Assembly: GCF_003815875.1 (NCBI RefSeq)
Contig: NZ_CP033924.1
Span: forward strand, 3,348,001 to 3,412,000
Direction of reading: 5' to 3'
Length of the DNA stretch: 64,000 nt
DNA from: Chryseobacterium lactis
Lineage (GTDB): Bacteria; Bacteroidota; Bacteroidia; Flavobacteriales; Weeksellaceae
The notes beneath the pieces are model-generated. The model was not told the DNA's origin and did no database searches. It worked only from the letters and a program-made list of their open reading frames with translations. Position 1 is the first letter of the stretch, and every line of letters starts with the position of its first letter. Position numbers and translations under genes: made by a program. Of the stretch, positions 4,338 through 10,629 are shown piece by piece.

Positions 4338-4420
4338 AAAAATTTCGTTGTAATTCGCTTGCGAATTTTCTTAGCTATCCCTAATAGCTTAACGATTCTT
4401 ACTAGTTTAAAATAAAAAGA

Positions 4421-4882
4421 TTACTCCAGATCAATTTTGAATTTAGTAGATTTTTTAACCTCATGAAGCACAATAGAACTGTGGTATTGTCCGATATTAG
4501 GAAGATTGGAAATTACGCTTACAGCAAATTCATTATAGGAATTAATATCCTTTGCGATAATTTTCAACATATAATCATATTCGCCCGAAAGGCTGGTTAT
4601 TTCCTGAACTTCATCGTATTTGGAAATGTTTTTCTCAAAAGTCTCCAATACTTTTTTGGATTGTTCTTTCAGACGAACATTACAGTAAACAATAATATTC
4701 AAACCCAGTTTTTCACGGTTTAAAAGCCCTACATACTTCTCAATAATTCCCTGTTTCTCCAATTGTTTGATCCTTTCATACGTAGGAGTGAAGGTAAGAC
4801 CTATCTTTTCGGATATTTCCTTAACTGATAATGTAGAGTCTTCCTGAATAATGCTGAGAATCATTTTGTCTTTTAAATCCAT
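4421..4882 (-). CDS. Lrp/AsnC family transcriptional regulator
   Basis: It has 153 residues: an N-terminal winged helix-turn-helix (about 1-60; DKMILSIIQEDSTLSVKEI then a recognition helix around PTYERIKQLEKQG) and a C-terminal RAM/AsnC ligand-binding domain (about 65-145) with the GEYDYMLKI strand. Such proteins form octamers that sense amino acids. It is transcribed away from pyrB and converges on argH, so regulation of arginine or pyrimidine genes is plausible but not shown. A TATTTTTG -7-like box lies upstream on the minus strand (4903-4910) without a good -33 element. Confidence 0.88.
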   Translation of the reverse strand: MDLKDKMILSIIQEDSTLSVKEISEKIGLTFTPTYERIKQLEKQGIIEKYVGLLNREKLGLNIIVYCNVRLKEQSKKVLETFEKNISKYDEVQEITSLSGEYDYMLKIIAKDINSYNEFAVSVISNLPNIGQYHSSIVLHEVKKSTKFKIDLE

Positions 4883-4968
4883 AGAACTGATTTGAATGGT
4901 AACAAAAATATTAATTTTAAATGAGAATAAGGAAATACTGACGTTTTTAATTTATTTCAAACTTTGTT

Positions 4969-4999
4969 TTTGGAGGTTCATAAAATTTTTGTATCTTTG
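4969..4999 (+). promoter_or_regulatory. Bacteroidota-type promoter of pyrB
   Basis: TTTG (4969-4972), a 19-base spacer and TATCTTTG (4992-4999) match the flavobacterial consensus TTG-N17-19-TANNTTTG exactly. Transcription would start near 5005, almost at the ATG of the leader ORF, giving a nearly leaderless mRNA for that peptide. Confidence 0.85.
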
Positions 5000-5005
5000 C
5001 ACCTA

Positions 5006-5077
5006 ATGAATAAAAAAGCATTTATATCATTAGATTTACCAGGCGAAAGCGCCCTTTACGATATTTATTGTTATTAG
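5006..5077 (+). CDS. pyrB leader peptide, 23 codons
   Basis: An ATG directly behind the promoter opens a 23-codon frame that begins MNKKAFIS and ends YDIYCY, stopping with TAG at 5075-5077. The stop codon overlaps the base of the downstream terminator stem (5076-5097). A small hairpin, GGCGAAAGCGCC (5042-5053), lies inside the ORF, and the segment after it is T-rich (TATTTATTGTTATTAG), so UTP shortage could slow RNA polymerase there. This is the layout of the enterobacterial pyrBI leader; the sequence is not homologous as far as can be judged. Translation is inferred. Confidence 0.65.
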   Translation: MNKKAFISLDLPGESALYDIYCY

Positions 5078-5103
5078 CGAAGATTGTTGTCTTCGCTTTT
5101 TTT
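5076..5103 (+). terminator. intrinsic terminator / attenuator in the pyrB leader
   Basis: AGCGAAGA (5076-5083), loop TTGTTG, TCTTCGCT (5090-5097), then an unbroken run of T to 5103. It sits between the leader ORF and the pyrB start and would end transcription before pyrB unless a ribosome at the leader stop codon masks its 5' arm. Confidence 0.8.
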
Positions 5104-5122
5104 ATGCCCAAAAATAAGAATT

Positions 5123-6013
5123 ATGTTTACGATTACAGAACTAAGCACCGAGAGAATCAACAGTATACTGACAGAAGCATTAGCTTTTGCAAACGGAAAA
5201 ACTGCTAAAATTGAAGGAGAAGTTTTTTGCTCAAACCTTTTCTTCGAAGACAGCACAAGAACAAAGACAAGTTTTGATCTTGCAGAAAGAAAACTGGGAC
5301 TTCAGGTAGTTCCTTTTGATGCATCACACAGTTCGGTAAATAAAGGAGAAAGTCTTTATGATACAGTGAAGACTATCGAAAGTATAGGAGTAAACCTGGT
5401 AGTGATCCGTGACAAAAAGGACAGATATTTTGAAGAACTAAAAAATATAACGATTCCTGTAATCAATGGAGGAGACGGAACAGGAAATCATCCTTCACAA
5501 TGTATGCTGGATTTACTGACGATCTATCAGGAGTTTGGAAAGTTTGAAGGGTTAAAAGTAGGAATTGTAGGAGATGTAAAGCACAGTCGTGTTGCCAATT
5601 CAAATGCAGAGGCATTAAGAAGATTAGGCGCTAAAGTATACTTCTCAGGACCCGAACAATGGTTTGATGAAGGAGCTTTAATCAACGGAACCTATCTTTC
5701 GGTAGATGAATTGACCGCTGAAGTAGATGTCCTGATGTTATTAAGAATCCAGCACGAAAGACACGATTCTGCCATGAGCTTTACCGCTTCGGAATACCAT
5801 AAAAGATATGGCCTGACCAAAGAAAGAGAGAAAGCAATGAAAAAAGAAGCAATCATCATGCACCCGGCACCGATCAACAGAGGAGTGGAAATAGATTCTG
5901 ATCTGGTGGAATGCGAAAGATCAAGAGTCTTCAAGCAAATGCAAAACGGAGTCTTCGCAAGAATGGCCATTCTGAAAGAAGCGCTGGAAGAAAAAGGATT
6001 CGCCTTTAAATAA
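5123..6013 (+). CDS. pyrB: aspartate carbamoyltransferase catalytic subunit
   Basis: It has 296 residues from the ATG at 5123. A longer in-frame start (TTG 5084) would lie inside the terminator and is rejected. The carbamoyl phosphate motif STRTKTSF and the HPSQ motif are present. It makes carbamoylaspartate, the first committed step of pyrimidine synthesis. No regulatory pyrI subunit follows, so control is probably at the leader attenuator rather than by CTP allostery. carA and carB lie just downstream on the same strand. Confidence 0.93.
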
Positions 6014-6035
6014 GAGCCAAGTTAAAAGGTAGTGA

Positions 6036-6180
6036 GCTCCGTAGGAGCGACCTGATAATAGCCATGAGGTATACAACCCTCAAAGATTATATAAGCCCCG
6101 AAGGGGCGACCTATTAATAACCATGGGTGAAACCCTTGGGAATAATAAAAAAAGAGCCTCGTAGAGGCGACCTGTTAATA
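6036..6180. repeat. three-unit REP-like hairpin array in the pyrB-carA gap
   Basis: Three hairpins, GCTCCGTAGGAGC (6036-6048), GCCCCGAAGGGGC (6095-6107) and GCCTCGTAGAGGC (6156-6168), recur every ~60 bases. Each is followed by GACCT and a TAATAA-like tail. Compensatory changes keep the stems paired while sequence differs. Between them are the partly palindromic CCATGAGGTATACAACCCTCA and CCATGGGTGAAACCCTTGGG. Confidence 0.75.
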
Positions 6181-6204
6181 AAAAAGAAAATCTAAATAGA
6201 AAAA

Positions 6205-7281
6205 ATGAAGAAAAAATTAATACTGGAGTCCGGTGAAGTGTTTCATGGAGAAGGTTTCGGAGCAGAATTGGAAACTGCAGGTGAAGTAGTTTTCAATACC
6301 GGAATGACAGGGTATCAGGAATTGATTTCTGACCCATCATATTGTGGCCAGATAGTTTGTATGACCTATCCGCTTATCGGGAATTATGGTATTAACCGTG
6401 ATGATTATGAAAGTATTGAGCCGGCAATTAAAGGGCTTATCGTAAAAGAACTTTGCGATCTTCCTTCCAACTTCCGTACTCAGATTACTTTAGATGAATT
6501 ATTTAAAAAGAAAAACCTTTCAGGAATTTCAGGAATCGATACGAGAAGACTGACAAGAATTCTTCGTAACTCCGGAGTTGTAAAGGGAAAAATCGTAAAC
6601 GCTGATGCTGATGAGAATGCTGTAGCTTCAGAATTGAAGTCAACCAATTTCCCAACTAACCAGGTTGAAGAGGTGTCTACAAAAACACCTTACGCGAACC
6701 CAAACAGAGGCTTTAAAGTAGTTTTGGTAGATTTTGGAGCAAAATTGGGAATCATCAGAGAGTTGTCACAGAGAAATTGTGATATCATCGTAGTATCTCA
6801 TGATACGACGGCTGAAGAAATCCTGTTGATGAATCCTGATGGAATCATGCTTTCAAATGGACCTGGTGACCCTGAAGATGTACCACACGCTTTAGATATG
6901 ATCCGTGGATTATTAGGAAAAGTTCCGATCTTCGGAATCTGTTTAGGACACCAGTTGATTGGTCTGGCTTGTGGAGCAAAGACTTTCAAATTGAAATTCG
7001 GACACAGAGGAGGAAACCATCCGGTACTGGACTTAGAGAAAAACACAGTGGCTATCACTTCGCAAAACCATGGATATGCAGTAGACCAGGAAAGTTTGAA
7101 GGGAACAGACCTTATCGAAACGCATATCGCTTTGAATGACAGAACCAACGAAGGTCTGAAACATAAAATTCACCCTTGTTTCTCTGTTCAGTATCACCCT
7201 GAAGCAAGCCCGGGTCCTGAAGATGCAAACTATTTGTTTGATGAGTTCATTCAATTAATGGAGGACTTTAAAAATAAATAA
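6205..7281 (+). CDS. carA: carbamoyl phosphate synthase small (glutaminase) subunit
   Basis: This 358-residue protein has an N-terminal CPSase small-chain domain (about 1-140) and a C-terminal class I glutamine amidotransferase domain. The nucleophile Cys246 sits in FGICLGHQ, and His331/Glu333 in QYHPE complete the triad. It hydrolyses glutamine and channels ammonia to CarB. The product, carbamoyl phosphate, feeds both PyrB and the ArgF'-type enzyme encoded nearby. It is separated from carB by 165 bases that contain a dispersed repeat. Confidence 0.94.
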   Translation: MKKKLILESGEVFHGEGFGAELETAGEVVFNTGMTGYQELISDPSYCGQIVCMTYPLIGNYGINRDDYESIEPAIKGLIVKELCDLPSNFRTQITLDELFKKKNLSGISGIDTRRLTRILRNSGVVKGKIVNADADENAVASELKSTNFPTNQVEEVSTKTPYANPNRGFKVVLVDFGAKLGIIRELSQRNCDIIVVSHDTTAEEILLMNPDGIMLSNGPGDPEDVPHALDMIRGLLGKVPIFGICLGHQLIGLACGAKTFKLKFGHRGGNHPVLDLEKNTVAITSQNHGYAVDQESLKGTDLIETHIALNDRTNEGLKHKIHPCFSVQYHPEASPGPEDANYLFDEFIQLMEDFKNK

Positions 7282-7288
7282 GACGGCT

Positions 7289-7366
7289 TTTTGTCATTCT
7301 GAACAAAGCGACAGCGGAGTGAAGAATCTCAACAATAACAGGTTAGATTCCTACGGAATGACAAAA
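7289..7366. repeat. 78-bp inverted-repeat element between carA and carB
   Basis: TTTTGTCATTC (7289-7299) and GAATGACAAAA (7356-7366) are perfect 11-bp inverted ends. The interior (GAACAAAGCGACAGCGG, AGTGAAGAATCT) matches the core of the larger element at 21529-21685 (GTCATTCTGAATGAAATG, AGTGAAGAATCTT), so both belong to one dispersed family. Confidence 0.65.
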
Positions 7367-7446
7367 TACAATATAGGTCTGATAAAGTAAAAACTACAAA
7401 GTTTAGGATCTTGACTCTTGATTCTTAACTCTAATTAAAAAGAAAA

Positions 7447-10400
7447 ATGGCAAAACGTACAGATATAAAAACAATTTTAGTAATCGGTTCAGGACCTATC
7501 ATCATTGGTCAGGCAGCTGAATTTGACTACGCAGGAACGCAGGCTTGTCTGTCTTTGAAAGAAGAAGGCTACAAGGTAATTTTGATCAACTCAAACCCTG
7601 CAACAATTATGACGGATGTAGAAATCGCAGATAAAGTATATATCGAGCCGATTTCATTACAGTTTGTAAGCCACATCATCAGAAAAGAGCGTCCCGATGC
7701 ATTATTACCAACCTTGGGAGGGCAGACAGGATTGAATATGGCAGTTGAGTTGGAAAAATCAGGAATTCTTGAAGAATGCAAAGTGGAGGTATTAGGTACA
7801 ACACTTTCTGCAATCAACAGAGCTGAAGACAGAGATCTTTTCCGTGAGTTGATGAGAGAATTGAACGAACCTGTTCCTGAATCTGATATCGTAAATACGG
7901 TGGAAGGAGCGCTTTCTTTCGCTGAGAATATCGGATATCCTGTGATCGTTCGTCCTGCCTTTACGATGGGAGGTACCGGAGGTGGTATCGCTTCTAATGA
8001 GGTTGAATTAAAAGAAATTGCTGAACTTGGGTTAAAATACAGCCCTGTTACACAATGTCTTATCGAAAAATCAATCGCAGGTTTCAAAGAGATTGAATAC
8101 GAAGTAATGCGTGATGCAAACGACAACGCCATTGTGGTTTGTAACATGGAAAACATAGATCCGGTTGGAGTTCACACAGGAGATTCAATCGTAGTAGCGC
8201 CTTCTCAGACACTTTCAGACAGAGAGTATCAATTGTTGAGAAATGCTTCTTTAAAAATCATCAGAGCATTAGGAATTGAAGGTGGATGTAACGTACAGTT
8301 GGCATTAGACCCACATTCATTCGAATACTATATCATCGAGGTAAACCCTAGAGTTTCCCGATCATCAGCACTAGCAAGTAAGGCGACAGGATACCCGATT
8401 GCAAAAATCGCTGCGAAAATCGCTGTAGGATTGACGCTGGATGAAATTATGAATCCGGTAACTGGAAAAACATACGCATGTTTTGAGCCGGCTCTTGACT
8501 ATGTAGTAACGAAATTCCCAAGATTCCCATTCGATAAATTCGAAACTGCAGACAGAAGACTTTCTACACAGATGAAAGCGACTGGTGAAGTAATGGCGAT
8601 CGGAAGAAACCTTGAAGAATCTTTACAAAAAGCAATCCGTTCACTGGAAACAGGAATCAAGCATTTAGGATTAAAGACAAAACAAGCTCAGGCACTTACT
8701 GCTGAAGAAATCGAAAGAAGAATCAGAGTTTGTGATGATGAGAGATTATTCATCATAGGAGATGCTTTAAGAAGAGGATACGACTGGGAACAAATCGTAG
8801 AATGGAGCAAAATTGATAAGTTCTTCATCTGGAAACTAAAAAAATTAGTAGACTTCGAAAAAATTATCGCTGAAAATAAATTCGATAAAGAAACATTAAT
8901 CGAGGCTAAGAGATTAGGTTTTGCAGATATCAATATCGCGGTCCTTTGGGATGTAAAAGAGCGTGAAGTTTTCAACTTCAGAAAAGAAAACGGAATAATG
9001 CCGGTTTACAAAATGGTAGACACGTGTGCCGCTGAGTTTGAATCTGAAACCCCTTACTTCTACGGAACTTACGAAGAAGAAAACGAAAGTGTTGTTTCAG
9101 ACAAAGAAAAGATCATTGTACTGGGCTCAGGACCTATCAGAATCGGTCAGGGAGTTGAATTTGACTACGCGACAGTTCACTCGGTTTGGGCGATCAAAGA
9201 AATGGGTTACGAAGCAATTATCATCAACAATAACCCTGAAACAGTTTCTACAGACTTCTCAATCTCTGATAAACTATACTTCGAGCCATTAACGGAAGAA
9301 GATGTAATGAACATCATCGAGCTTGAAAAACCTAAAGGAGTAGTTGTACAGTTCGGAGGACAGACAGCGATCAACCTTGCAGATAAATTAGCTTCTCACG
9401 GAGTACAGATCTTAGGAACTTCGCTGGAAGATCTTGACAGAGCTGAAAACAGAGATAAATTCGAAAAAGCACTTCAGGAGATGGGAATTCCTCAGCCAAA
9501 CGGAAGAACTTCCACTTCGAAAGAAGAAGCTATAAAAATTGCGAACGAAATCGGTTACCCGGTATTGGTTCGTCCAAGCTACGTTCTTGGAGGTAGAGCA
9601 ATGGAAATTGTATATGCAGAAGCAGAACTGGCCCATTATATGGAAAATGCGGTAGATGCGAGCCCTGAACATCCTGTTTTGGTTGACAAATACATGGTTG
9701 GAAAGGAAATTGAAGTTGATGCAATCTGTGATGGTGAAACAGTAGTAATTCCAGGAATTATGGAACACATCGAAAGAGCGGGAGTTCACTCCGGAGACTC
9801 TATCGCAGTGTATCCACCACAGAATATTTCACAAAGCGAAATCGATACTTTAGTAGATTATACAAAAAGACTGGCAAAAGGATTGAAGGTGATCGGATTG
9901 ATGAATATCCAGTACGTTCTTTTTGAAGGAAATGTTTATGTGATCGAAGTAAACCCACGTTCTTCAAGAACGGTTCCTTTCTTATCTAAAATCACAGAAG
10001 TTCCGATGGCGAACCTTGCTACAAAAGCAATTTTAGGACAAAAACTGAAAGATCTTGGATATAAAGATGGTTTAGTACCAAATAAAGAAGGCGTTTTTGT
10101 AAAAGTTCCTGTGTTCTCTTTCTCAAAACTAACGAAAGTGGATATCTCTCTAGGACCAGAAATGAAGTCTACAGGAGAGGTTATGGGGAAAGATACAACA
10201 CTTGAAAAGGCACTTTATAAAGGATTGGTTGCAGCAGGAAGAAAAGTTCCGATGCATGGTTCTATCCTGTTTACTGTAGCAGACAAGCATAAGGAAGAAG
10301 CAGCTGATCTGGCAGCAAGATTCCATGAAGTAGGATTCAGAATCTGGGCGACGGAAGGAACTGCAAAATTCTTCGAACAAAAAGGAATTCCTTGTAAAAT

Positions 10401-10629
10401 AGGATACAAAATCGGCGAAGAAAGTGTAAACCTTATCGACCTGATCCAGAAAGGAAAAGTTCAGTATGTAGTCAATACCACTACAAAAGGGAAGCAAGCT
10501 GAAAGAGACGGATTCCAGATCAGAAGAATGAGTGTGGAAAACGGTGTTCCTTGTTTAACTTCGATGGATACGGTAGAAGCCATTCTGAAAGTAATCGAAA
10601 GCATGAGCTTCAAAATGGAGACGATGTAA
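7447..10629 (+). CDS. carB: carbamoyl phosphate synthase large subunit
   Basis: At 1060 residues it has the usual full length. Two homologous halves each carry an ATP-grasp domain: the first begins with [20 protein letters not shown], the second (about residue 555) with [26 protein letters not shown] and [12 protein letters not shown] are seen in the second half. The C-terminal MGS-like domain (about 930-1060) is the allosteric region in known enzymes. With CarA it forms carbamoyl phosphate from bicarbonate, ammonia and two ATP. A strong terminator follows at 10654. Confidence 0.95.

Follow-up and report, generated by a model that had tools for sequence, protein, structure and literature searches.

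A probable ribosome-coupled, UTP-sensing attenuator before pyrB in Chryseobacterium lactis and other Weeksellaceae

We sought to determine how pyrB might be controlled in Chryseobacterium lactis, in which the gene is preceded by a short ORF running into a putative transcription terminator. The locus lies within a 64,000-nt stretch of contig NZ_CP033924.1 (positions 3,348,001 to 3,412,000; hereafter, the window), and a preliminary description of it had proposed that the leader acts as does that of E. coli pyrBI, in the absence of both pyrI and PyrR. The features of the locus, in window coordinates, are as follows.

4969..4999, plus strand: promoter of the Bacteroidota sigma-A type, TTTG-N19-TATCTTTG; the -33 TTTG occupies 4969-4972 and is followed by a 19-nt spacer and by TATCTTTG at 4992-4999
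5004..5005, plus strand: predicted transcription start, T or A, 1-2 nt 5′ of the ATG, placed from the box-to-start spacing
5006..5077, plus strand: leader ORF of 23 codons, MNKKAFISLDLPGESALYDIYCY, with ATG at 5006-5008 and TAG at 5075-5077
5004..5032, plus strand: hairpin P1, from folding, with the leader ATG within its 5′ arm
5042..5053, plus strand: hairpin P2, a candidate pause hairpin, from folding and comparison across leaders
5054..5075, plus strand: U-rich tract (13 T in 22 nt) with a predicted UTP-sensitive pause, the RNA 3′ end lying at about 5064-5065
5076..5104, plus strand: intrinsic terminator (attenuator), with its stem at 5076-5097 and seven T at 5098-5104
5123..6013, plus strand: pyrB, aspartate carbamoyltransferase catalytic subunit, ATG at 5123 (NF002032 and TIGR00670 over cut-off)
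6205..10629, plus strand, as pyrB: carA and carB (NCBIfam matches over cut-offs), possibly co-transcribed with pyrB

The promoter, the 23-codon ORF, the terminator overlapping the leader stop codon and the T-rich stretch 5′ of the stem were all confirmed at their coordinates, and the ATG, which had been said to lie close to the likely start site, is found 6 nt after TATCTTTG, giving a predicted 5′ UTR of 1-2 nt. Hairpins P1 and P2 come in addition to the structures named previously. The terminator stem has 9 bp (-11.9 kcal/mol), with its 5′ arm beginning at the second base of the TAG, and the fold of the 104-nt leader RNA as a whole is better than that of 200/200 dinucleotide shuffles (z -4.0). 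The gene upstream of the leader (4421-4882), which is Lrp-like but scores under the cut-off of that model, lies on the opposite strand, and the terminator is therefore not the end of that gene.

If such an arrangement is functional, its frame should be retained in relatives, and the preliminary description had made its proposal dependent on conservation of the ORF and stem. PyrB matches are present in 148/148 genomes of Chryseobacterium and in 44 of the 60 genomes of the family. We examined 91 pyrB loci, 51 from Chryseobacterium (30 best matches, 20 from more diverged ones and one from the family search) and 40 from other genera of the family. In 87 of them a T(A/T)nnTTTG box with an ATG no more than 9 nt behind it is located 5′ of a terminator; the other four were set aside, namely the three loci of genus g17 (L083-L085) and L064, in which an insertion separates the leader from pyrB and whose leader was scored as L192. 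The leader proved to be conserved, in that the ORF of 87/87 scored leaders runs to 11 nt or less from the stem, or farther, with the stop codon at -3 to -1 of the stem in 70, at -12 to -4 in ten, inside the hairpin in three and past it in four. Among the 36 distinct leaders from outside the genus, the frame runs to 12 nt or less from the stem, or farther, in all 36, versus 10.1 expected from dinucleotide shuffles, and the stop is at -3 to -1 in 22, versus 5.1 expected, although the shared ancestry of the leaders makes these shuffle counts, and the Fisher p-values given below, overstate independence. Named records (L148-L199), some of whose genomes overlap with the earlier set, carry the leader in 52/52 cases, 51 of which reach to within 12 nt of the stem; records with leaders come from Chryseobacterium, Epilithonimonas, Cloacibacterium, Elizabethkingia, Riemerella, Kaistella, Bergeyella, Soonwooa, Amniculibacterium and Halpernia, and from MAGs labelled otherwise. 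Several records titled Chryseobacterium have leaders identical to ones from the genus of the window.

Overall, in the 81 distinct leaders the stop is at -3 to -1 in 57, at -12 to -4 in 12, inside the hairpin in three, past it in eight, and early in one, L192, whose ORF ends 17 nt before the stem. Passage of the ORF through the hairpin is permitted, though unneeded, under an attenuator model. The leader peptides diverge widely from genus to genus. Thus, a short leader ORF ending at or overlapping the terminator that precedes pyrB, by which a pyrBI-type leader is recognized, is found in this family. The conservation that had been anticipated among flavobacteria was observed in one family, the Weeksellaceae, and not more widely; in the loci examined from other families of Flavobacteriales, 19/19 keep pyrR beside pyrB on the same strand.

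The region between the start codon and the terminator provides the second line of evidence. RNAalifold applied to a MAFFT alignment of 30 leaders yielded zero pairs, and since the register of P2 shifts between genera, per-sequence shuffle tests were used in place of alignment folding. In the 36 leaders from outside the genus the region before the terminator is only moderately above shuffles (fold z of -2 or lower in 11/36, positive in 4/36), and P2 was better than 95% of base shuffles in 21/36 in an earlier test. We then considered 47 distinct leaders lacking the SL(E/D/N)(L/F)PG peptide of Chryseobacterium and Soonwooa. A P2 with at least three G-C pairs is present in 42 of the 47, versus 4.5 expected when the sequence upstream of the final 16 nt is shuffled; the other five have no P2 with three G-C pairs. 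The distance from P2 to the stem has a standard deviation of 3.2 nt, versus 6.5 nt in shuffles.

P1, P2 and the terminator together resemble a structured leader, which might suggest a riboswitch or a protein-binding attenuator, to which the ORF would be incidental. The stem and loop sequences, however, diverge strongly from genus to genus, the 42 leaders having 26 different P2 stems, while the frame is preserved as the remainder varies, and no Rfam match at gathering score was obtained in the pyrB region of the window or of six named relatives; in the window (4400-6300) zero families reached that score, the L20_leader model giving 16.9 bits on the leader versus a cut-off of 58.7. We consider such an attenuator highly improbable.

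Downstream of P2, U makes up 66% of the bases at -14 to -3 before the stem in the 47 distinct leaders, A 27%, and C and G 3% each; these genomes are AT-rich, a bias toward U tracts, yet U exceeds A more than twofold. This preference for U at the nucleotide level in a U-rich region before the terminator is what a pyrBI-type leader displays. Measured from the base of P2, U accounts for 10-33% of positions up to +9, 60% at +10, 38% at +11 and 86% at +12 (48% at +12 in shuffles), and C is absent at +11 to +13 in the 42 leaders. Pause hairpins are reported to lie 11-12 nt upstream of the paused RNA 3′ end (PMC12288461), and with U at +12 the next nucleotide at the predicted pause would usually be U; this hairpin-to-U geometry, which is one of sequence alone, fits an 11-12-nt pause in 42/47 leaders and exceeds shuffles. 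In the last six codons, Phe, Tyr and Ile are encoded by U-ending codons more often than in a reference of 13 pyrB genes (pooled Fisher p 1.6e-11), with Asn codons unshifted (p 0.87), and selection therefore seems to act on the nucleotide.

A hairpin followed by a T-rich motif is also the layout described for NusG-dependent pauses in B. subtilis (PMC12288461), and NusG, together with a TTNTTT-like sequence and P2, might set the pause, with the leader mainly reporting the rate of its own translation, i.e. ribosome activity, and not UTP. The NusG protein from the genome of the window retains one of the two residues involved in pausing in B. subtilis, with N at the position of N81, but T82 is replaced by I. 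The reference for this comparison was chain 8ehq_G, which we take to be B. subtilis NusG. The near-exclusion of C and the U-favouring third positions are better explained by UTP sensing, so that a leader reporting mainly on ribosome activity appears unlikely; NusG pausing and UTP sensing are compatible, and not mutually exclusive.

The same codons bear on attenuation of the trp/his type, in which a ribosome stalled at the late Tyr, Ile or Phe codons would flip an antiterminator/terminator pair. Many of the leader ORFs do end in Ile/Tyr/Phe-rich stretches, leader-peptide control has been suggested for amino-acid operons of F. psychrophilum (PMC9723704), and a translated leader, predicted here, governing an intrinsic terminator is common to both systems. 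Complementarity between leader and terminator arm, however, is found at p of 0.05 or lower in only 1/36 leaders, which does not exceed chance and argues against an antiterminator of this type. The stop codon touches the stem, whereas a stop-to-terminator spacing of more than 20 bp is given for amino-acid attenuators (PMC4824070), the tract codons favour U at the third position over a run of any one codon, and the target is pyrB, with carB in a single case. The exclusive antiterminator and the stop codon well before the terminator that mark trp/his-type leaders were thus not found in the leaders scored, and we regard this type of control as very unlikely. The leader ORF could also merely be a translational enhancer, or an antenna for reinitiation at pyrB, with a constitutive terminator, as short leader genes near a structural gene may play such roles (PMC4833913); however, 45 nt, including the terminator, separate the leader stop from the pyrB ATG in the window, while the spacing in Bacteroidetes is reported to peak at 11-14 bp (PMC4833913), and we consider this reading highly improbable.

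In its layout, the leader corresponds most closely to E. coli pyrL-pyrBI, with which it shares a short ORF reaching the terminator, a U-rich region, pyrB as the target and, as proposed here, direct blocking of the terminator hairpin by the ribosome (PMC10135430, PMC4824070). Ribosome blocking in pyrBI is described as steeply dependent on distance, and the stop-to-stem distances in our leaders point to direct blocking, unlike the spacing of more than 20 bp in amino-acid attenuators (PMC4824070). The two differ in that E. coli pyrL is a 135-bp leader gene (PMC10135430, PMC4824070), while the window leader has 23 codons, and in that the family ORF mostly ends at the base of the stem, the predicted 5′ UTR is 1-2 nt long, part of the family has a hairpin holding the ATG, pyrI is absent, and the phylum is a different one; a separate origin of the two leaders is proposed. 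We consider it highly probable that the pyrB leader is a ribosome-coupled, UTP-sensing transcription attenuator operating in the mode of pyrL-pyrBI, which arose separately. The pyrBI-like reading put forward in the preliminary description thus gains support from the conserved frame, the stop-to-stem position, P2 and the preference for U.

Under this model, transcription would begin 1-2 nt before the leader ATG, and RNA polymerase would pause with P2 in its exit channel and U needed next. With ample UTP, the polymerase would leave at once, ahead of the ribosome, and the terminator would fold, stopping transcription near 5104. At low UTP, the polymerase would linger in the U tract, and a ribosome loaded at the 5′-terminal AUG would get to the stop codon; positioned there, on the base of the terminator, it would prevent formation of the hairpin, and pyrB, possibly with carAB, would be transcribed. 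We infer the start site, the translation of the leader, the pausing and the response to UTP from the sequence and its conservation.

The placement of the start site relies on the TAnnTTTG box, which occupies -12 to -5 relative to the start in F. psychrophilum (PMC9723704) and, in probable promoters of F. johnsoniae, is separated from the start by 4-5 nt (PMC6847099). In the 81 distinct leaders, with the ATG sought within 9 nt of the box only, the first ATG follows the box by 6 nt in 74, by 5 nt in six and by 7 nt in one. The leader is thus predicted to be practically leaderless, with a 5′ UTR of 1-2 nt. Leaderless mRNAs are reportedly rare in relatives, constituting 5.5% in F. psychrophilum (PMC9723704), and 5′ UTRs of under 10 nt make up 3.7% in B. 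thetaiotaomicron (PMC7366714). A P1-like stem enclosing the ATG is present in 23/36 leaders from outside the genus, versus 9.8 by shuffle, and P1 extends to two bases before the ATG in 25/47 leaders; it is frequent in the family, though short of universal. We infer a role for P1 in the switch: in a leaderless variant of the model, a 70S ribosome would have to occupy the 5′-terminal AUG before P1 closes over it. An alternation of C-G and T-A pairs in P1 (13 and 12 of 25) was not counted as evidence of covariation, because P1 had been called on the basis of pairing in the first place.

The claimed absence of other pyrimidine regulators could be corroborated at the family level. PyrI (PF02748) was found in 0/60 family genomes, with the control positive in 7/14 named genomes, and PyrR likewise in 0/60, while the same query was positive in 14/14 other Flavobacteriales, the 14 being loci already examined. 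Elsewhere in the phylum, pyrR is present in the fetched stretch at 7/15 pyrB loci; inspection by eye of the remaining eight revealed no comparable leader. The PyrR-binding RNA (RF00515) of the PyrR-dependent pyr attenuators of Bacillota, which require the protein that was not found in the 60 family genomes, was detected neither in the window (4400-6300) nor in the pyrB region of six named relatives.

The pyrB gene itself falls with a Bacillota type. Its product in the window shares 38-45% identity with PyrBs found in other families of Flavobacteriales. In a wider scan, which used two short peptide patterns and a query from another genus of the family, with the best 80 matches listed, the nearest outside-family loci among the matches listed are 28 at 56-61% identity, 27 of them from Bacillaceae genera and one from a Pseudomonas sp. 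by label; 14 of these 28 nearest listed loci (5/10 plus 9/18) carry the PyrR RNA element (RF00515) 5′ of pyrB. In a quick tree of 58 proteins, for which the program warned of long branches (g17, L131 and L145), the family, 13 of these Bacillaceae and g17 are together set apart from the rest by a branch of length 1.73 (SH-aLRT 100). The likeliest history, with the direction of transfer being deduced, is that a Bacillota-type pyrB was gained laterally, that pyrR was lost, and that a new attenuator took over, and the laterally shared pyrB seems to have acquired a pyrBI-like, near-leaderless attenuator by convergence. A fuller scenario, in which the native pyrR-pyrB was displaced and replaced, and in which a leaderless UTP attenuator weighs ribosome loading against P1 closure and a UTP-limited pause, is offered as possible, though less likely than not.

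Searches of an open-access library listed no paper whose title and abstract pointed to a Bacteroidota pyrB leader. A 2010 survey described leader-peptide systems as known, before its own Firmicutes case, only in Proteobacteria and Actinobacteria (PMC2965389), and Bacteroidota are described as a phylum without Shine-Dalgarno sequences (PMC6847099). If true, our reading would make such a phylum a clear example of pyrBI-type attenuation evolved by convergence. One step would then be served in three ways, by pyrR paired with pyrB in related families, by PyrR RNA elements among the closest PyrBs listed from outside the family, and by a ribosome race in Weeksellaceae. To our knowledge, ribosome-polymerase coupling has been little studied in Bacteroidota. 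If the leaderless reading also holds, the leader would combine nucleotide sensing, leaderless initiation and ribosome coupling in one attenuator, and would speak for tight coupling of transcription and translation in the phylum. The 81 distinct leaders from Chryseobacterium, Elizabethkingia, Riemerella and others constitute a comparative set for pause geometry and leaderless initiation.

The distribution of the leader was also surveyed with model R1, which yielded 46 matches in 41/60 family genomes: 41 before pyrB in 40 genomes, one before carB and four elsewhere. Across 149 genomes of the class, R1 gave two matches at E of 0.01 or lower, both in the genus of the window, in a search whose stricter filters lose weak matches and may let diverged leaders escape, some family leaders scoring only E 0.02-0.05. 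Genomes with PyrB and no R1 match comprise the three of g17 and one carrying only a gene fragment. In g17 the pyrB leader layout is missing and PyrB is more distant; two of its loci (L084 and L085) have a longer leader, and in 2/3 loci a TTG-start frame is open through an AT-rich terminator. A PyrB match is absent in 16/60 family genomes, 14 of which are at least 90% complete (G154, G156, G165, G167, G174, G175 and others); these could be pyrimidine auxotrophs or possess a very different enzyme.

Three of the matches away from pyrB (E 0.018-0.1) are located behind gene ends and resemble ordinary terminators. One genome (G159) has two diverged pyrB copies (L079 and L080), each with its own leader of the pyrB type. 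The same genome contains a further R1 match (L126, contig 15, 2989-3100, E 4.7e-5) with a box, an ATG and a terminator, in which the frame stops after three codons and behind which a long frame is absent. The match before carB (L127, genome G197) has the box TATTTTTG, an ATG 6 nt later and a 31-codon ORF running through the terminator, followed by carB with an apparent GTG start; a pyrB-type leader before carB was seen in this one genome of the family. In the window, a GGNGCGACCTNNTAATA-like motif occurs three times, at spaced positions, in the interval between pyrB and carA (6040-6180), and, with one mismatch at most, GGGGCGACCTNNTAATA occurs in the whole genome as those three copies only.
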